A stretch of DNA of 54,196 bases, from the NCBI GenBank assembly GCA_017526905.1, contig JAFXQT010000080.1, positions 1 through 54,196 of the forward strand, given 5' to 3'. The DNA is from Bacteroidaceae bacterium. Its GTDB lineage: Bacteria > Bacteroidota > Bacteroidia > Bacteroidales > Bacteroidaceae. Under the pieces are notes generated by a model. It made no database searches and had not been told where the DNA came from. It saw only the letters and a program-made list of their open reading frames with translations. The position numbers were made by a program, and so were the translations under genes. This document shows, piece after piece, positions 10,603-37,942 of the stretch (position 1 is the stretch's first letter; each line of letters begins with the position of its first letter).

Positions 10603-10634
10603 TTTGGCTGATACACGGAATTGCTTTACATTTG
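10603..10634 (+). promoter_or_regulatory. trp operon promoter
   Basis: TTTG at 10603-10606 and TACATTTG at 10627-10634 are separated by 20 bases, an excellent match to the Bacteroidetes -33/-7 consensus. Transcription should start near 10639, about 20 bases before the leader-peptide ATG. Confidence 0.85.
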
Positions 10635-10658
10635 CAGCGCAAAACAACAACAAACGCA

Positions 10659-10718
10659 ATGATTCGTAACTTCAATACATTTTGGTGGTGGCGTAGCTCA
10701 AGGTTCCATAAATCGTGA
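10659..10718 (+). CDS. trpL: trp leader peptide with WWW
   Basis: The 19-residue ORF MIRNFNTFWWWRSSRFHKS has three consecutive Trp codons (10683-10691) and ends with TGA at 10716-10718. Tandem Trp codons in a short ORF between a strong promoter and an intrinsic terminator, ahead of trp genes, are the mark of a leader peptide for ribosome-mediated attenuation. When charged Trp-tRNA is scarce the ribosome would stall on the WWW run. Gene identity is by position and composition; it was too short for routine gene calling. Confidence 0.88.
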   Translation: MIRNFNTFWWWRSSRFHKS

Positions 10719-10788
10719 GTCGCATTGCCATATATATATGTATAAAGAATAACATACAAAACAGAAAGGCTTGTCGGGAATCTCACGG
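10713..10788 (+). promoter_or_regulatory. Candidate trp antiterminator pairing
   Basis: Bases 10713-10719 (TCGTGAG) can pair with 10782-10788 (CTCACGG): six Watson-Crick pairs and one wobble. The left strand overlaps the leader stop codon. The right strand lies in the loop and inner right arm of the downstream terminator, so the two structures exclude each other. A weaker alternative pairs TTGCC at 10725-10729 with GGCAA at 10787-10791. This is inference from complementarity, not a computed fold. Confidence 0.6.
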
Positions 10789-10803
10789 CAAGCCTTTTTA
10801 TTT
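10765..10803 (+). terminator. trp attenuator terminator
   Basis: AAAGGCTTGTCG (10765-10776) pairs with CGGCAAGCCTTT (10786-10797), a 12-bp stem with one wobble and a 9-base loop, followed by a T-rich tract (TTATTT). It lies between the leader peptide and trpB, where a terminator only makes sense as an attenuator. Confidence 0.88.
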
Positions 10804-10863
10804 GGCAACACAACAAACAAAACACAGCCATACAACACACAAACCAACACGAAAAGCAACAAT

Positions 10864-12048
10864 ATGCACAGCCACAACATTAACACAAACGGATTCTACG
10901 GCCAATTCGGCGGAGCCTACGTCCCAGAAATCCTTTACCACACCGTGGAGACACTCAGGGAACAGTACCTGCCCATCATCCAGAGCGAGGCGTTCCAACA
11001 GGAGTACATGCAGCTACTGCGCGACTACGTAGGGCGCCCAAGCCCCTTGTATCTGGCCCATCGCATGAGTGCCAAGTACGGATGCCGACTCTACCTGAAA
11101 CGCGAGGACCTGAACCACACGGGAGCACACAAAATAAACAATGCCATCGGCCAGATTCTGTTGGCACGGCGCATGGGCAAGAAGCGCATCATAGCCGAGA
11201 CGGGTGCCGGTCAGCACGGCGTTGCCACCGCCACGGTGTGCGCCCTGATGGATATGCCCTGCCGCATTTACATGGGTGCCACCGACGTGGCTCGCCAGCA
11301 TGTGAATGTAGAGCGCATGAAGATGCTTGGCGCCGAGGTGTTTCCGGTGGAGAGCGGCAACAAGACACTGAAGGACGCCACCAACGAGGCCATACGCGAC
11401 TGGTGTTGCCACCCGTCCGACACGTTCTACATCATCGGCTCCACGGTGGGGCCACACCCCTACCCCGACATGGTGGCACGCCTGCAGAGCATCATCAGCC
11501 AGGAAATCAAACAGCAACTCTTTGAGAAGGAAGGGCGCGACTATCCCGACTACCTCATGGCCTGCGTAGGCGGAGGCTCCAATGCCGCCGGCACCATCTA
11601 CCACTACATCGACGACGAACGCGTGCGCATCTGTCTTGGCGAGGCTGGCGGCAAGGGCATCGACAGCGGGCTGACGGCTGCCACCATCCACTGCGGTACA
11701 CTGGGTATCATCCATGGCTCGCGAACGCTGGTGATGCAGACTGCCGACGGACAGATTATCGAACCTTACAGTATTTCAGCGGGGCTTGATTATCCCGGCA
11801 TCGGCCCCATGCACGCCCATTTGGCACAAGTACACAGGGCCACGGTCATGGCCATCACTGACGACGAAGCGCTCAAGGCTGCCTATGAGCTGACACGCCT
11901 GGAAGGAATCATACCTGCATTGGAGAGCGCGCATGCCTTGGCCATGCTGCCCAAAATGTCGTTCCGCCCCACCGACATCGTCGTGCTTACGGTGAGCGGC
12001 CGCGGCGACAAGGACCTGGACACTTACCTGAAGCACCAACAGGCGTAA
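10864..12048 (+). CDS. trpB: Tryptophan synthase beta subunit (TrpB1)
   Basis: This 394-residue PLP enzyme condenses indole with serine. The PLP lysine is K90 in HTGAHKINN, the substrate loop ETGAGQHGVATA follows near 113, and the phosphate-binding loop GGGSNAAG lies near 239. The start at 10864 gives MHSHNINTNGFYGQFGGAYVPE, the standard N-terminus; an upstream in-frame ATG at 10771 lies within the attenuator hairpin and is rejected. It is the first structural gene of the operon, apart from its partner trpA at the other end. Confidence 0.96.
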   Translation: MHSHNINTNGFYGQFGGAYVPEILYHTVETLREQYLPIIQSEAFQQEYMQLLRDYVGRPSPLYLAHRMSAKYGCRLYLKREDLNHTGAHKINNAIGQILLARRMGKKRIIAETGAGQHGVATATVCALMDMPCRIYMGATDVARQHVNVERMKMLGAEVFPVESGNKTLKDATNEAIRDWCCHPSDTFYIIGSTVGPHPYPDMVARLQSIISQEIKQQLFEKEGRDYPDYLMACVGGGSNAAGTIYHYIDDERVRICLGEAGGKGIDSGLTAATIHCGTLGIIHGSRTLVMQTADGQIIEPYSISAGLDYPGIGPMHAHLAQVHRATVMAITDDEALKAAYELTRLEGIIPALESAHALAMLPKMSFRPTDIVVLTVSGRGDKDLDTYLKHQQA

Positions 12049-12160: not shown

Positions 12161-13552
12161 ATGTTTTCCTACCACACCGCTACGCGCCATATCCTTGGCG
12201 ACATACACACCCCCGTCAGCACCTACTTGAAGGTGCGCGACCTCTATCCTCAAAGCGCGCTGCTGGAGAGTTCGGACTATCACGGCAACGACAACGCCCG
12301 CTCATTCATCGCCCTGTGCCCTATAGCTTCCGTTGAGATCAGCCATGGCGTTGGCATCGGGCACCTGCCCGACGGCACTGGCATGCGTCGCTCCATCCAC
12401 GGCTCAGACACGGCTGCGTTCCTCCAGTCGTTCCTCGATCAGTTTCAAATCGAAGGCGACAGCAGCAACTATTGCGGCCTATACGGCTATACGTCGTTCA
12501 ATGCCGTGCGCTATTTCGAACAGATTCCGGTCAAGGACGAAACACAGGAGAAGAACGATGCACCCGACCTCCTGTACATCCTGTACAAATACCTCATTGT
12601 GTTCGACCACTTCAGCAACAGCCTTACGCTTGTCGAGCTGCTGACGGAGCATGAGTCATCACACCTGAACGAACTGGAGCAGCGGCTCGGGCGTCCGGCC
12701 CTCAGCACCTACGATTTCCGCCCGGAAGGCGAGATCAGCAGCACGCTCACCGACGACGAGCACCGTGCCAACATACGGCGGGGCATCAGCCACTGTCTGC
12801 GCGGCGATGTGTTCCAGATTGTGCTTTCCCGCCGTTTCTGCCAGCGTTACACGGGCGACGATTTCCAGCTCTACCGCACGCTTCGCAGCATCAACCCCTC
12901 GCCCTATCTGTTCTATTTCGACTTCGGCGGCTTCCGCATCTTTGGTTCTTCGCCCGAGACACACTGCCGCATAGACGGTAGCACGGCCTATATCGACCCC
13001 ATAGCCGGCACCACACGCCGAACGGGCAATACCGAGCAGGACCGACAGAACGCCCAGTATCTTCGCAACGACCCGAAGGAGAATGCCGAGCACGTGATGC
13101 TAGTGGACTTGGCACGCAACGACCTCTCACGCAACTGCCACGACGTGCACGTGGATTTCTTCAAGGACATGCAATACTACAGCCACGTGATCCATCTGGT
13201 GAGCCGCGTCAGCGGAACACTCAATGCCGATGCCTCGCCAATACGTACGTTCATCGACACCTTCCCCGCCGGCACCCTTTCCGGTGCGCCTAAAGTGCGC
13301 GCCATGCAGCTCATCACCGAAATCGAGCCGCACAACCGCGGCGCCTACGGCGGCTGCATCGGTTTCATCGGTCTGGACGGCTCGCTCAACCAAGCCATCA
13401 CCATCCGCACCTTCGTGAGCCGCAACAACGAGCTTTGGTTCCAGGCCGGCGGAGGCATCGTGGCCAAGAGCGACGTGGAATACGAATTACAAGAAGTTAA
13501 CAACAAGCTTGGTGCATTGCGTCACGCCATAGCCCAAGCAGCTCAAATGTAA
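12161..13552 (+). CDS. trpE: Anthranilate synthase component I
   Basis: This 463-residue chorismate-using subunit carries the family motifs IAGTTRRTG, DLARNDLSR and FPAGTLSGAPKVRAMQLI in the C-terminal half. The start at 12161 gives MFSYHTATRHILGD; an upstream in-frame ATG at 12062 would add 33 residues translated from repeat sequence and is rejected. Ammonia comes from TrpG, whose gene begins 4 bases after the stop. Confidence 0.95.
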   Translation: MFSYHTATRHILGDIHTPVSTYLKVRDLYPQSALLESSDYHGNDNARSFIALCPIASVEISHGVGIGHLPDGTGMRRSIHGSDTAAFLQSFLDQFQIEGDSSNYCGLYGYTSFNAVRYFEQIPVKDETQEKNDAPDLLYILYKYLIVFDHFSNSLTLVELLTEHESSHLNELEQRLGRPALSTYDFRPEGEISSTLTDDEHRANIRRGISHCLRGDVFQIVLSRRFCQRYTGDDFQLYRTLRSINPSPYLFYFDFGGFRIFGSSPETHCRIDGSTAYIDPIAGTTRRTGNTEQDRQNAQYLRNDPKENAEHVMLVDLARNDLSRNCHDVHVDFFKDMQYYSHVIHLVSRVSGTLNADASPIRTFIDTFPAGTLSGAPKVRAMQLITEIEPHNRGAYGGCIGFIGLDGSLNQAITIRTFVSRNNELWFQAGGGIVAKSDVEYELQEVNNKLGALRHAIAQAAQM

Positions 13553-13556
13553 TGCC

Positions 13557-14120
13557 ATGAACATCATCATCATCGACAACTACGACTCCTTCACCTACAA
13601 CCTCTCGCACCTGGTGAAACAGCTCGGAGCCACATGCACCACGGTGCGCAACGACCAGTTTGAACTGCCCAGCCTGGATGCCTTCGACAAGATTATACTC
13701 TCGCCAGGCCCAGGCATCCCAAGCGAGGCGGGTTTGCTCTTAGACGTAATCCGCACCTATGCCGGGCGCAAGCCAATCCTGGGCGTATGCCTGGGGCACC
13801 AGGCCATAGGCGAGGCTTTCGGAGCGCAGCTGGAAAACCTGACCGAGGTGTTCCACGGCGTGCAGACCCCCATAACCATCACCACCCCCGACTACCTGTT
13901 CAGCGGCCTGGACACGCCGGTCGATGTGGGACGCTACCACTCCTGGGTCGTCTCCAAGGCCGGTTTGCCAGCCTGCCTCGAAGTGACAGCCGAAAGCGCC
14001 GAAGGCCAAATCATGGCACTGCGGCACCGGCAGCTGGACATCCGCGGCATCCAGTTCCACCCCGAAAGCGTGCTCACCCCCTGCGGCGAAACGTTGCTCA
14101 GCAACTGGATCAACCACTAA
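13557..14120 (+). CDS. trpG: Anthranilate synthase component II (glutaminase)
   Basis: This 187-residue class I glutamine amidotransferase has the catalytic triad Cys78 (GVCLGHQAIG), His168 and Glu170 (FHPESVL), and the oxyanion motif SPGPGIP near 49. It supplies ammonia to TrpE. There is no fused PRT domain. It starts 4 bases after trpE, consistent with coupled translation. Confidence 0.95.
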   Translation: MNIIIIDNYDSFTYNLSHLVKQLGATCTTVRNDQFELPSLDAFDKIILSPGPGIPSEAGLLLDVIRTYAGRKPILGVCLGHQAIGEAFGAQLENLTEVFHGVQTPITITTPDYLFSGLDTPVDVGRYHSWVVSKAGLPACLEVTAESAEGQIMALRHRQLDIRGIQFHPESVLTPCGETLLSNWINH

Positions 14121-14175: not shown

Positions 14176-15171
14176 ATGAAACACTATCTTTCTGCCCTCA
14201 TCGAGGGGCGCGACCTCACACGCGAGGAGACACGCGACATCATGCTCAACCTTACGCGCGAGCAATACAACGAACACCAGATAGCAGCCCTGCTCATGGC
14301 CATCCAGCTGCGCGGCGTCACCGTGGACGAACTGCTGGGCCTGCGCGACGGTCTGCTCGAAACCGGACTCTACATCGACCTGAGCGACTACAACACGCTC
14401 GATATCGTAGGAACCGGCGGCGACCAGAAGAACACGTTCAACATCTCCACTTGTGCCGCATTCGTCATTGCCGGCGCCGGCTACAAGGTGACCAAGCATG
14501 GCAACGGGGCCAGCACCTCAGTAAGCGGTGCCAGCAACGTTCTGCAGAACCACGGCGTGCGCTTCAGTTCCGATGCCGACCAACTGCGCCGCAGCCTCGA
14601 CGAAGCCGGTATCTGCTATTTCCACGCGCCCCTGTTTGCCTACGGCATGAAGTTCGTCGGGCCGGCACGCAAGGCGCTGGGAGTGCCCACCTGCTTCAAC
14701 CTGTTGGGACCGCTGGTCAACCCCTGCCACCCACACAACTCGTTGCACGGCACAGCCAACCAAAGCCAGCTCCGCCTCTACACAAGCATTCACCAGCGCA
14801 TCGGCGACAACTTTGGCGTGGTGACCAGCTACGACGGCTATGACGAGATATCACTTACCAGCGGATTCAAGCTCGTGACCAACAGCTTTGAGAAGGTTTA
14901 TACACCCAAGGAGATGGGACTGAACTACGTGGAACCGTCCGACATCTATGGCGGCGAGAGTGCCGAGGAGGCCATGCTCATATTCGACAACGTGTTGCAA
15001 GGCACCGCCACCACCGCCCAGCGGAATGTAGTGCTTGCCAATGCCGCCTGCGGCATCAGCGTGATGGACCGCAACCTCAGCATCGAGGAAAGCCTGGATC
15101 AGGCACGCGAGTCGCTGGACAGCGGCCGGGCGCTGAACGCCCTGAAGCGCTTCGTCGCCATCAACTCCTGA
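14176..15171 (+). CDS. trpD: Anthranilate phosphoribosyltransferase
   Basis: This 331-residue enzyme transfers the phosphoribosyl group of PRPP to anthranilate. Motifs GTGGDQKNTFNIST near residue 78 and KHGNGASTSVSGASN near 105 are conserved, as is FNLLGPLVNP near 172. The 55-base spacer from trpG is an ACAC-rich stretch without a Shine-Dalgarno sequence. Confidence 0.95.
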   Translation: MKHYLSALIEGRDLTREETRDIMLNLTREQYNEHQIAALLMAIQLRGVTVDELLGLRDGLLETGLYIDLSDYNTLDIVGTGGDQKNTFNISTCAAFVIAGAGYKVTKHGNGASTSVSGASNVLQNHGVRFSSDADQLRRSLDEAGICYFHAPLFAYGMKFVGPARKALGVPTCFNLLGPLVNPCHPHNSLHGTANQSQLRLYTSIHQRIGDNFGVVTSYDGYDEISLTSGFKLVTNSFEKVYTPKEMGLNYVEPSDIYGGESAEEAMLIFDNVLQGTATTAQRNVVLANAACGISVMDRNLSIEESLDQARESLDSGRALNALKRFVAINS

Positions 15172-15211: not shown

Positions 15212-16015
15212 ATGTCAGATATTCTGGAAGAAATCGTTGCCCGAAAGCGGCTGGACGTTGCACAGGCCAAGGAGCGACTGCCCGAGCAACAGCTGCACTG
15301 CCTGGTGGAACGCCAGCTGGAGGCCGAGAGCCATAGCCCTGCGCCACGCCGCAGCATGCAGCAGGCCCTGCTGCAATCCAGCACAGGCATCATAGCCGAG
15401 TTCAAGCGGCGGTCGCCCTCCAAGGGGTGGATCAAAGAAGAGGGGCGCCCGGACATCATCCCGCCCGCCTACGAACAGGCAGGGGCAAGTGCCCTGTCCA
15501 TCCTCACCGACGAGCCCTATTTCGGCGGCAGCCAATCCTTTATCCAAACGGCGCGCCCGCTGGTGCATATCCCCATCCTGCGCAAGGACTTCATCATCGA
15601 CGAGTATCAGCTGTTCGAAGCCCGCCACATCGGTGCCGATGCCGTGCTGCTCATTGCCGCATGCCTCACGCTGCAGCAATGTGCGACCTTCGTGCACACA
15701 GCCCACCAGTTGGGGCTGGAGGTTCTGTTGGAAACGCACAGCGAGGCCGAACTGGACTATGCCACCCTCGAGGCCGACATGGTGGGCGTGAACAACCGCA
15801 ACCTGGGCACCTTCGTCACCGATGTCCAGAACTCCTTCCGCATGGCAGAGTTGCTGCCTGCCGACCGCGTGCTGGTGAGCGAGAGCGGCATTGCCAGCCC
15901 CGACACCATAGGCCAGCTGCGCCAGGCAGGCTATCGCGGTTTCCTCATCGGCGAAACATTCATGCGGCAAGCCGACCCAGGCGCTGCCCTCCAAGCCTTT
16001 GTCCAAGCACTATGA
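15212..16015 (+). CDS. trpC: Indole-3-glycerol phosphate synthase
   Basis: This 267-residue TIM-barrel enzyme closes the indole ring. EFKRRSPSKGWI (near 56), LRKDFIIDEYQ (near 125), GVNNRNL (near 192) and SESGI (near 225) mark the active site. Its stop overlaps the trpF start (ATGA at 16012-16015). Confidence 0.95.
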   Translation: MSDILEEIVARKRLDVAQAKERLPEQQLHCLVERQLEAESHSPAPRRSMQQALLQSSTGIIAEFKRRSPSKGWIKEEGRPDIIPPAYEQAGASALSILTDEPYFGGSQSFIQTARPLVHIPILRKDFIIDEYQLFEARHIGADAVLLIAACLTLQQCATFVHTAHQLGLEVLLETHSEAELDYATLEADMVGVNNRNLGTFVTDVQNSFRMAELLPADRVLVSESGIASPDTIGQLRQAGYRGFLIGETFMRQADPGAALQAFVQAL

Positions 16016-16635
16016 TCATAAAGATTTGCGGCATGCGCGAGCCCGACAACATACGCGCCGTTGCCACACTGGTGCGCCCCGACTGGATGGGCTTCATCTG
16101 TTGGCCGGGCTCTAAGCGCTTTGTGGCCCAGGTGCCAGCCTATCTGCCCCAGCCGCCTGTGCAACGCGTGGGGGTGTTCGTTGATGCTCCCGTCCAATAC
16201 GTGCGCCAGCAGGCCGAAGCGCTTGGCCTGCACTTGATTCAGCTGCACGGCCACGAGGACGAGCAGTACTCCCACGCCATTAAAGAAATACTCCACCTGC
16301 CCATCATCAAGGCTTTTGGCATCAGCGACTTATCCGACATCGTTAAAGTCAACGCCTACGCCAGCCGTTCCAGTGCCGACTACCTGCTCTTCGACACCAG
16401 CACGCCGCTGGTGGGTGGCAGTGGCCGGCAGTTCGACTGGTCGCTCCTGAGCCACTACACAGGCCCCCTCCCCTTCCTGCTCAGCGGTGGCATCGGACCA
16501 GCCGATGCGACACAGATCCGGGCATTCAGCCACCCCCGTTGCATCGGCATCGACCTGAACTCGCGCTTCGAAGTGTCGGCCGCCCTGAAGGATGTGCATG
16601 CCCTGCAGGCTTTTGCCGAGGAACTCAGACAATAA
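16012..16635 (+). CDS. trpF: Phosphoribosylanthranilate isomerase
   Basis: This 207-residue TIM barrel starts MIIKICGMREPDNI; the KICGM motif carries the catalytic Cys, and the acid is the Asp of LLFDTS near 126. GGSGRQFDW and LSGGIGPAD form the phosphate site. The start is fixed by the ATGA overlap with trpC; a longer in-frame ORF from 15427 runs through trpC in another frame and is not real. Confidence 0.94.
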   Translation: MIIKICGMREPDNIRAVATLVRPDWMGFICWPGSKRFVAQVPAYLPQPPVQRVGVFVDAPVQYVRQQAEALGLHLIQLHGHEDEQYSHAIKEILHLPIIKAFGISDLSDIVKVNAYASRSSADYLLFDTSTPLVGGSGRQFDWSLLSHYTGPLPFLLSGGIGPADATQIRAFSHPRCIGIDLNSRFEVSAALKDVHALQAFAEELRQ

Positions 16636-16666: not shown

Positions 16667-17437
16667 ATGAACCGAATCAACACCCTCTTCCAGCAGAAAC
16701 CGTCCGGGCTGCTATCCTTATATTTCTGTGCCGGGCACCCCACGCCCGACAGCACAGCCACCATCGTCCGCACGCTGGCACACCGCGGCATCGACATGAT
16801 CGAGATTGGCATCCCCTTCAGCGACCCGATGGCCGACGGCCCCGTCATCCAGGATGCTGCCACCAAGGCGTTGCGCGGCGGCATGACGCTGCGCAAGCTG
16901 TTCGGCCAGCTGGACGGCATCCGCACGGACGTGTCCATCCCGCTCATCCTCATGGGCTATCTCAACCCCATCATGCAGTTCGGCTTCGAAGCCTTCTGCC
17001 AGCGGTGCGCCGAGGTGGGCATAGACGGATGCATCATCCCCGACCTGCCCTTTGCCGACTATCTGGAGCACTACAAGCCCATAGCCGACCGCTACGACCT
17101 GCGCATCATCATGCTCATCACTCCCGAGACGAGCCCCGAGCGCATCCGCTTCATCGACCACCACACCGACGGCTTCATCTACATGGTGTCGTCGGCAGCC
17201 GTCACCGGTGCCCAGAGCGAGTTCGACCGCCAAAAACAGGCCTACTTCCAGCGTATCGACGACATGCACCTGCGCAACCCGCGCATGATCGGCTTCGGCA
17301 TCTCCAACCGGCAGACGCTCGAGAGCGCACAGCAGAACGCCGCCGGAGCCATCATCGGCTCCAAATTCGTGTCGCTGCTCGACAGCACACAAAATGCCGA
17401 CCTGGCCCTTGACGCGCTGCTAAAGGCCCTAAGTTAG
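16667..17437 (+). CDS. trpA: Tryptophan synthase alpha subunit
   Basis: This 256-residue TIM barrel cleaves indoleglycerol phosphate. IEIGIPFSDPMADGP holds the two catalytic acids (Glu and Asp), and MVSSAAVTGAQ lines the phosphate site. The start at 16667 gives MNRINTLF; an earlier in-frame ATG at 16592 lies inside trpF. It is the last gene of the B-E-G-D-C-F-A order, so its partner trpB is seven genes away. Confidence 0.95.
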   Translation: MNRINTLFQQKPSGLLSLYFCAGHPTPDSTATIVRTLAHRGIDMIEIGIPFSDPMADGPVIQDAATKALRGGMTLRKLFGQLDGIRTDVSIPLILMGYLNPIMQFGFEAFCQRCAEVGIDGCIIPDLPFADYLEHYKPIADRYDLRIIMLITPETSPERIRFIDHHTDGFIYMVSSAAVTGAQSEFDRQKQAYFQRIDDMHLRNPRMIGFGISNRQTLESAQQNAAGAIIGSKFVSLLDSTQNADLALDALLKALS

Positions 17438-17536: not shown

Positions 17537-18904
17537 ATGAGCAACAGACAAAAGCGATTCTTCCTCCCCGAGAGCGAGATCCCCACACAGTGGTACAACA
17601 TTCAGGCAGACATGGTCAACAAGCCCCTGCCCCCACTCCACCCCGGCACCAAGCAGCCCCTCAAGGCCGAGGACCTCTACCCCATCTTTGCAGAGGAACT
17701 GGCCCGGCAGGAACTGAACCAGACCGATGCGTGGATCGACATACCCGAACCCGTGCGCGAGATGTACAAGTTCTACCGCAGCACACCGCTGGTGCGCGCC
17801 TACGGACTGGAGGAAGCGCTGGGCACGCCCGCACACATCTACTTCAAGAACGAGAGCGTGAGCCCCGTGGGCAGCCACAAACTGAACTCGGCCCTGGCAC
17901 AGGCCTATTATAACAAGGTGCAGGGCGTGACCAACATCACCACCGAGACCGGTGCCGGCCAATGGGGCGCCGCACTCTCTTATGCAGCCAAGGTGTTCGG
18001 TCTGGAATGCGCCGTCTATCAGGTAAAGATCAGCTACAACCAGAAGCCCTACCGCCGCAGCATCATGCAGACCTTCGGCGCCACCGTCGAGGCATCGCCA
18101 TCCATGAGCACCCGTGCCGGCAAGGACATCATCACACGCGACCCGATGAACCAGGGCTCGCTGGGCACCGCCATCTCCGAGGCCATCGAACTGGCCATGA
18201 ACACGCCCAACTGCAAATACACCCTCGGCTCGGTGCTGAACCACGTGGCCCTGCACCAGAGCGTCATCGGTCTGGAGGCCGAGAAGCAGATGCAGCTGGC
18301 CGGCGAGTACCCCGACATGGTCATCGCCTGCTTTGGCGGCGGCAGCAACTTCGGCGGCATAGCCTTCCCATTCATGCGTCACAACATCCTCGAGGGCAAG
18401 CAGACGCAGTTCATCGCTGCCGAACCGGCTTCGTGCCCCAAACTGACCCGCGGCCAGTTCCAGTACGACTTCGGCGACGAGGCCGGCTACACGCCCCTGC
18501 TGCCCATGTTCACGCTGGGCCACAACTTCATGCCCGCCAACATCCACGCCGGCGGCCTGCGCTACCACGGCGCCGGTGTCATCGTGAGCCAGCTGCTCAA
18601 GGACGGTCTGATGAGCGCTGTGGACATCCCGCAGCTGGAGACCTTCGAGGCCGGCACACTCTTTGCCCGCACCGAGGGCATCATTCCCGCCCCGGAGAGC
18701 AGCCACGCCATTGCAGCCACCATCCGCGAGGCACTGAAGTGCAAGGAGACAGGCGAGGAGAAGGTCATCCTCTTCAACCTCAGCGGCCACGGCCTCATCG
18801 ACATGAGCGCCTATGACCAGTACCTCAGCGGCAACCTGCAGAACTACGAGGTGACCGACGAGCAGGTCCAGGCCAACCTGGCCAAGCTGGAAAAGGTAAT
18901 CTAA
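17537..18904 (+). CDS. trpB: TrpB2-type tryptophan synthase beta-like protein
   Basis: This 455-residue PLP enzyme belongs to the longer TrpB2 group. The PLP lysine is K115 in SVSPVGSHKLNSA, followed by TETGAGQWG near 137 and the PLP phosphate loop FGGGSNFGG near 268. It has the N-terminal extension (LPESEIPTQWYNIQADM) typical of TrpB2. Known TrpB2 proteins use indole and serine, but often do not pair tightly with TrpA; its role could be indole salvage. The start at 17537 is preferred over 17438, which immediately follows the trpA stop. It is separated by 99 bases and has its own -7 box. Confidence 0.9.
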   Translation: MSNRQKRFFLPESEIPTQWYNIQADMVNKPLPPLHPGTKQPLKAEDLYPIFAEELARQELNQTDAWIDIPEPVREMYKFYRSTPLVRAYGLEEALGTPAHIYFKNESVSPVGSHKLNSALAQAYYNKVQGVTNITTETGAGQWGAALSYAAKVFGLECAVYQVKISYNQKPYRRSIMQTFGATVEASPSMSTRAGKDIITRDPMNQGSLGTAISEAIELAMNTPNCKYTLGSVLNHVALHQSVIGLEAEKQMQLAGEYPDMVIACFGGGSNFGGIAFPFMRHNILEGKQTQFIAAEPASCPKLTRGQFQYDFGDEAGYTPLLPMFTLGHNFMPANIHAGGLRYHGAGVIVSQLLKDGLMSAVDIPQLETFEAGTLFARTEGIIPAPESSHAIAATIREALKCKETGEEKVILFNLSGHGLIDMSAYDQYLSGNLQNYEVTDEQVQANLAKLEKVI

Positions 18905-19194: not shown

Positions 19195-19226
19195 TTTGGC
19201 GTTCTGACAGAAAAGCACTACTTTTG
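19195..19226 (+). promoter_or_regulatory. Promoter of the 184-residue membrane protein
   Basis: TTTG at 19195-19198 and TACTTTTG at 19219-19226 with a 20-base spacer match the Bacteroidetes consensus fully. The predicted start of transcription is near 19231, 18 bases before the ATG at 19249. Confidence 0.82.
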
Positions 19227-35178: not shown

Positions 35179-35209
35179 CAAAGGTAGTGCAAAGTGCCGG
35201 TATGGCAAA
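35179..35209 (-). promoter_or_regulatory. folK promoter
   Basis: On the minus strand TTTG (35209-35206) and TACCTTTG (35186-35179) are 19 bases apart, a full consensus match. The ATG lies only 8 bases after the -7 box. Confidence 0.75.
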
Positions 35210-37910: not shown

Positions 37911-37942
37911 TTTGGCATTTTAAGCGGAAAATACTACTTTTG
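37911..37942 (+). promoter_or_regulatory. pheT promoter
   Basis: TTTG at 37911-37914 and TACTTTTG at 37935-37942, 20 bases apart, are a full consensus match. They lie 27 bases before the pheT ATG. Confidence 0.82.

Follow-up and report, generated by a model that had tools for sequence, protein, structure and literature searches.

A candidate ribosome-mediated trp attenuator in Bacteroidia, in which the antiterminator strand is predicted to pair with the loop and 3' half of the terminator

In Escherichia coli, transcription of the trp operon is attenuated through the trpL leader, in which the regions 1:2, 2:3 and 3:4 pair alternatively and the antiterminator is formed with the terminator's 5' arm. 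Such ribosome-mediated attenuation needs coupling between transcription and translation. The 2010 survey of Lopatovskaya et al. is said to have predicted ribosome-mediated control by comparison of genomes. A 2010 survey stated that, as far as its authors knew, no case outside Proteobacteria and Actinobacteria preceded the Firmicutes one that it presented. For Actinobacteria, ribosome-mediated attenuators are reported to have been predicted by comparison (PMC1262725). In the Bacteroidota, two papers offer hints of such attenuation in print: leader-peptide attenuation was suggested in Flavobacterium psychrophilum, with the architecture not given and the words trp and tryptophan absent from the main text (PMC9723704), and leader-like small ORFs in 5' UTRs, with a mention of leader-peptide-like attenuation, were described in Bacteroides thetaiotaomicron, of the same order as the DNA studied here, again in a main text without trp or tryptophan (PMC7366714). 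No paper on a Bacteroidota trp attenuator was among the literature matches listed, which comprised titles and abstract openings and mostly lacked subscription papers and supplements.

We analysed a stretch of 54,196 nucleotides from a Prevotella-like Bacteroidaceae bacterium, called the window below, in which the trp operon is preceded by what is very probably, on comparative and folding grounds, a ribosome-mediated transcription attenuator built on three short competing sequences. It has in common with E. coli trpL a leader peptide with tandem Trp codons, an alternative hairpin that hides the antiterminator strand and a terminator before the first gene. Unlike trpL, the leader of the window lacks a Shine-Dalgarno-like site and is preceded by a Bacteroidota promoter.

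The leader and the operon in the window

The layout of the leader, on the forward strand throughout, agrees with the original prediction, which had been made from the letters alone. A consensus promoter of Bacteroidota type occupies 10603..10634 (TTTG at 10603-10606, 20 bases, TACATTTG at 10627-10634), and the transcript would start near 10640. It is followed by a leader ORF of 19 codons, MIRNFNTFWWWRSSRFHKS*, at 10659..10718 (stop codon UGA at 10716-10718), with three consecutive, putatively regulatory Trp codons at 10683..10691. Between this ORF and the first structural gene, as befits an attenuator, lies an intrinsic terminator hairpin at 10763..10799 with 14 pairs, a loop at 10777-10785 and a T-rich tail; leaving out the two foot pairs (A-U and G-U) gives the 12 pairs originally counted. 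Tandem codons for the operon's own amino acid in a short ORF are what ribosome-mediated attenuators, broadly defined, possess. The hairpin has a folding energy of -20.4 kcal/mol (z -6.5) and the whole leader, 10641-10803, one of -41 kcal/mol (z -4.1). A generic promoter and terminator scan of the window listed neither the trp promoter nor the terminator, whose loop of 9 exceeds the limit of 8 in that scan.

The promoter pattern TTTG-N18-22-TAnnTTTG matched four times in the window against 0.20 expected, a number reached by none of 100 shuffles; the other exact matches to the consensus lie at 19195-19226, 35179-35209 (reverse strand) and 37911-37942. Among the 78 aligned leaders of the family described below, 64 have TAnnTTTG no more than 80 nt before the leader ATG, compared with 3 of 78 for a control stretch, and a Shine-Dalgarno-like motif upstream of the leader ORF was found in one. 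The motif TGGTGGTGG alone is not rare (2 in the window vs 0.7 expected), and its weight comes from its location in the leader ORF and from conservation.

Downstream of the leader the gene order is trpB-E-G-D-C-F-A-trpB2, all on the forward strand: trpB, the first gene of the operon, at 10864..12048, trpE at 12161..13552, trpG at 13557..14120, trpD at 14176..15171, trpC at 15212..16015, trpF at 16012..16635, trpA at 16667..17437 and a second, trpB2-type tryptophan-synthase beta-like gene at 17537..18904, with putative start codons for trpE, trpF, trpA and trpB2. Pfam gives PALP for both beta-type genes, and the naming of trpB as against trpB2 is our assignment. The genome of the window is a 2.8-Mb draft of 104 contigs, and the closest named TrpB records come from an uncultured Prevotellaceae bacterium and a Bacteroidaceae bacterium (88% and 86% identity).

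Recurrence of the element within the Bacteroidia

In a sample of 151 genomes of the family, 103 trpB matches were found, and the upstream DNA of 99 was taken, four at contig ends being left out. On manual reading, a short leader ORF with WW, WWW or WRW precedes 88 of these 99, commonly in the form NTYWWWR-x-LQL-xx-S*. A script paired the Trp run with a terminator in 81; exclusion of three that were anchored on a wrong TGG run (L025, L078, L080) left a family alignment of 78 leaders from 25 genera. In this alignment the terminator has two-sided changes at all 14 pairs, with 93.9% of cells paired. Loss from close relatives, which the original prediction had named as evidence against it, may apply to two of the nine sampled genomes of the window's own genus: seven retain the element, and it is not clearly present in G010 and G060.

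A named set consisted of 80 loci chosen by TrpB similarity, of which 57 passed the script, including two records of Bacteroides fragilis, Prevotella communis, Phocaeicola coprocola and Phocaeicola plebeius. Four of these 57 leaders are identical to family leaders, so the two sets overlap. By eye, the element is also present in L164, L190 (short terminator) and L199; the last, a possible decay intermediate, has one Trp codon remaining (NACLWR) and a still matching A/A' pair (the elements A and A' are described below). One locus (L227) was cut by a contig end, in six (L207, L217, L218, L221, L229, L233) trpB stands behind a putative trpA, and in the remaining 13 no leader was seen in the 270 bases before trpB. 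A record titled Clostridium sp. (L163) carries a Bacteroidales-type trp operon with a leader identical to a family one, and its title looks wrong.

Among 295 genomes of the order, model R1 matched 198 at E ≤ 0.01, a figure that overstates the true number because the weak matches are partly false. Twenty further weak places were read: seven (L296, L301, L302, L307-L310; E 2.5e-5 to 8.2e-4) proved to be plain terminators, and the other 13 had an amino-acid leader on manual reading. We examined 69 order loci (L105-L133, L250-L289), each with a best E ≤ 6.3e-8; the script accepts 66, and a leader is visible by eye in the other three (L125, L286, L289). L105 and L111 are loci of the window's own family, and L276 coincides with class locus L138. 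Among 295 genomes of the class, 70 matched at E ≤ 1e-4, and 24 of 25 loci taken from the class search (L135-L159) pass the script; the other, L150 (E 1.6e-8), has no leader and is a false match. A phylum search matched 36 of 247 genomes at E ≤ 1e-6. Every one of them falls in this class, and so do the listed genomes that gave no match, so that nothing follows for other classes.

Of 158 leader rows, a number in which tandem, overlapping and stray leaders are included, 155 are followed by a match to trpB, trpE, trpD or trpB2 no more than 700 nt further on (the exceptions being L102, L151 and L255). As the downstream gene varies among the trp genes, it is the operon's start, and not trpB as such, with which the element is associated. 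The element is widespread in Bacteroidales, and the locus is not an isolated example.

Two Trp leaders with terminators stand in tandem upstream of trpE in L250 and L251 (genomes G346 and G156) and upstream of trpB in L252 (G334), and L253 (G332) is possibly of the same kind. Twenty family genomes have no trpE match, 16 of which have trpB2 (G095 also has a trpB start at a contig end). Five of the 16 (L291-L295, in G019, G030, G046, G024 and G020) carry a WW(W) leader and a terminator directly upstream of trpB2, and a sixth, G053, has a weak model match at this place; the trpB2 of G046 contains one internal stop codon. Leaders at lone trpB2 genes suggest attenuation of indole salvage.

Three covarying elements and the geometry of their pairing

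Three short elements can be recognised in the leader of the window. S1 (GCUCA, 10696..10700), just behind the Trp codons, is predicted to pair with 10716-10720 (UGAGU) and thereby to sequester A. Element A (UCGUGAG, 10713..10719), the putative antiterminator strand, overlaps the leader stop codon, and its candidate target A' (CUCACGG, 10782..10788) consists of four loop bases together with the three that open the terminator's 3' arm. Judged by its letters, A is complementary to both S1 and A'. The pairing of A with A', seven pairs of which one is U-G, had been noticed originally, together with the overlap of the stop codon; that account holds as far as it goes and is incomplete, S1, which would hide A when no ribosome is present, having been missed. 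In the minimum-energy fold of the free RNA, 10685-10691 in the Trp codons pairs with 10725-10731.

Across the 78 leaders and 25 genera of the family alignment, S1, A and A' change letters together. The covariation score of A:A' is 0.293 against 0.231 when shuffled, a value reached by none of 500 shuffles, with two-sided changes in 8 of 9 pairs; sliding the alignment out of register brings the score to only 0.04-0.13. For S1:A the score is 0.322 against 0.213 (0/500), with two-sided changes in 6 of 6 pairs and 80.3% of cells paired. Weaker measures are the share of paired A:A' cells (83.4% vs 80.2% shuffled) and the number of further pair types, where the real value was reached by 11 of 500 shuffles for A:A' and S1:A alike. 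A central change runs through all three elements, column 41 (S1) being U/C, column 60 (A) A/G and column 168 (A') U/C. With one sequence per genus (25 genera, 2000 permutations), a leader's own A:A' pairing scored 17.5 against 15.2 permuted (0/2000) and its own S1:A pairing 11.9 against 9.9 (4/2000), while the negative control S1:A' was equalled by 817 of 2000; relatedness is only partly removed by these covariation and permutation controls. The own A:A' pairing also beat all 2000 permutations in the named (57), order (66) and class (24) sets alike. Of these the named set, chosen by TrpB only, is the cleanest, because the model used to pick the order and class sets contains the consensus of A. 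The 152 leader-bearing loci of these later sets show, for 3'-half targets, 78 distinct letter pairs of A and A', for example GACGTTGTG/CACAACGTC, GTTGCCGCTA/TAGCGGCGAC and CCGGGG/CCCCGG. Genus g3 of the family set has an A:A' of only 5-8 pairs.

The stop codon had been proposed as the switch. It overlaps A in 56 of 78 family leaders (before A in 1, after it in 21), 43 of 57 named leaders (before 5, after 9), 36 of 66 order leaders (before 4, after 26) and 9 of 24 class leaders (before 9, after 6), and in genera g23 and g29 the reading frame runs through A with the letters of A kept. This partial overlap, together with the retention of A in read-through frames, makes the stop codon a frequent partner of A and not the switch: it often positions the ribosome on A, yet it is not the conserved element itself.

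A resembles the 5' arm of the terminator, and its predicted target is the loop and the 3' half. The centre of A' falls in the hairpin's 3' half in 54 of 57 named, 62 of 66 order and 15 of 24 class loci. In the 3'-half loci of the family, named, order and class sets it overlaps at least one stem pair in 73/73, 54/54, 61/62 and 15/15, and at least three in 70, 54, 55 and 13. Herein lies the difference from E. coli trpL, where the antiterminator takes the 5' arm; this geometry, with A directed to the loop and 3' half, looks new. Trp leaders of Bacteroidetes may already be among those in the survey of Lopatovskaya et al. (2010). An ordinary attenuator of the E. coli type, in which the antiterminator would use the 5' arm and the 3'-half match of A would be incidental, shares the same leader and logic. 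Pairing with the 5' half is indeed found in the remaining 9 of 24 class loci, with classical pairing to the 5' arm in L144, L154 and L157, and in 4 of the 5 His leaders that the script returned; in both B. fragilis records a match on the 5' side (16.0) outscores the best one in the 3' half (13.5). We nonetheless consider this explanation highly improbable, because the best complement of A lies in the 3' half in the window as well as in the named and order majorities counted above, and covaries there.

A leader with at least four His codons was found at 5 of 25 hisG loci and at L297, and all six (L297, L315, L316, L319, L322, L335) have a His-codon run and a terminator upstream of hisG. Five of the six were returned by the script, with pairing to the 5' half in L315, L319, L335 and L297 and to the 3' half in L316; L322, which it did not return, pairs with the 5' arm by eye. 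That related attenuators use both geometries suggests that the 3'-half design of the Trp leaders is not an artefact of the method. The hisG locus of the window's own genome (L318) has no leader with at least four His codons, and a His-run search in this genome gave 89 and 54 matches and was not informative. Leaders with a run of Cys codons lie upstream of sulfite-reductase-like and cysteine-synthase-like ORFs, named by manual reading of the ORF starts, in L304 and L306 (G465 and G278).

Masked folding and a proposed kinetic mode of antitermination

We folded the leaders with a ribosome footprint masking a chosen codon and the RNA available up to the end of A'. The probability of A:A' pairing, P(A:A'), exceeded 0.5 in 68 of 78 family leaders with the ribosome on the first Trp codon, in 74 with it on the last, in 1 with it on the real stop codon and in 8 with no ribosome. 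In the window P(A:A') was 0.61, 0.91, 0.00 and 0.00 in these states. These values support the original proposal that a ribosome at the Trp codons frees A and one at the stop codon covers it. Another run favoured A:A' in 70 of 78 with the ribosome on the first Trp codon, and its 0 of 78 in the stop state arose by construction, A itself having been masked. In family leaders with the stop codon outside A, P(A:A') with the real stop masked was at most 0.5 in 20 of 21. When no ribosome is present, upstream sequence ties up A in 66 of 78 leaders. Comparison and masked folding together thus point to an alternative pairing that depends on the position of the ribosome.

In full-length RNA, the terminator dominates in all three states in 78 of 78 leaders. 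In the window, P(A:A') reaches at most 0.61 when the ribosome occupies the first Trp codon, and drops to 0 once the RNA up to 10794 is free. Since the full terminator wins at equilibrium in every state, the choice between A:A' and the terminator must be kinetic; we infer that the antitermination step itself is of this nature, as equilibrium folds alone would always terminate. The trp leader of E. coli behaves similarly under like masks: its antiterminator was seen only at 120-126 nt, after which the terminator overtakes it (folds read manually), so that transience in such models is common to a proven attenuator.

On this basis the following sequence of events is conceivable. With no ribosome on the leader, S1:A would hold A and the terminator would form, giving basal termination. 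When tryptophan is plentiful, the ribosome would run on to the stop codon, which mostly lies on or close to A, and again the terminator would form. When Trp-tRNA is scarce, the ribosome would stall on the Trp codons and disrupt the S1:A hairpin, while A, which starts about 20 nt past the last Trp codon (median 20 nt in the named, 19 in the order and 17 in the class set), would lie outside its footprint. The freed A could then capture A' as this emerges from RNA polymerase, occupying the apex at which nucleation of the hairpin would begin. The hairpin would thereby be held back until the U-tract had passed, with read-through into trpB as the outcome.

How far A:A' disturbs the terminator bears on this scheme. 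In the family set the terminator loses a median of 5 stem pairs to A:A' and keeps 10. In the window, A' covers four loop bases and the top three stem pairs, 10 of the 13 folded pairs stay, and the original term 'mutually exclusive' was too strong: the exclusivity would be kinetic, not structural. With a median of 10 lower-stem pairs left, A:A' might coexist with a shortened terminator in a pseudoknot. This coexistence is what speaks for a pro-termination pseudoknot, in which A would bind the terminator loop and strengthen termination, the sign of control being opposite. We regard that as highly improbable, given that A' overlaps stem pairs, which a loop-stabilising partner does not need, and that A, concealed in free RNA until a ribosome on the Trp codons lays it open, would then shut the operon when tryptophan is short. 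The favoured explanation is that A:A' would prevent termination through capture of the nucleation site of the hairpin.

In a TnaC-like arrest the leader peptide senses free tryptophan within the ribosome, and the RNA pairing would here be secondary. Similar NTYWWWR..LQL..S leaders in many genera fit this idea, which we nevertheless hold to be extremely unlikely: the amino acids that follow the Trp codons vary along with the RNA letters (SSRF, LQLQ, LGFK, NSRP), the frame sometimes runs through A, and conservation follows base pairing. Regulation by a Trp repressor, TRAP or a T-box, with the hairpin a plain terminator, has next to no probability, as no point in its support was found in the analysis, Trp_repressor (PF01371) and TrpBP (PF02081) have no match in the window's genome (79% complete, so that their absence is not proven) and none of the Rfam 15 families, which include the trp leader and T-box families, matched the window at gathering score.

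For the attenuator preferred here, we lean slightly towards a distinct, class-wide architecture, in which a leader decoy that resembles the upper 5' arm of the terminator would capture the nascent apex and 3' half, denying nucleation in a short kinetic window rather than forming a stabler antiterminator. The targeting of 3' or 5' half would have flipped within the Bacteroidia with the three-way logic kept, and the device would have been carried to lone trpB2 genes after loss of the pathway. The 3'-half target poses a physical question, namely how a pairing that spares about 10 terminator pairs could prevent termination, and the many letter variants ease the design of compensatory tests. A class-wide trp attenuator would offer a direct test of transcription-translation coupling in Bacteroidia, in leaders mostly without Shine-Dalgarno-like sites, and control of tryptophan and indole in gut bacteria may bear on host biology.
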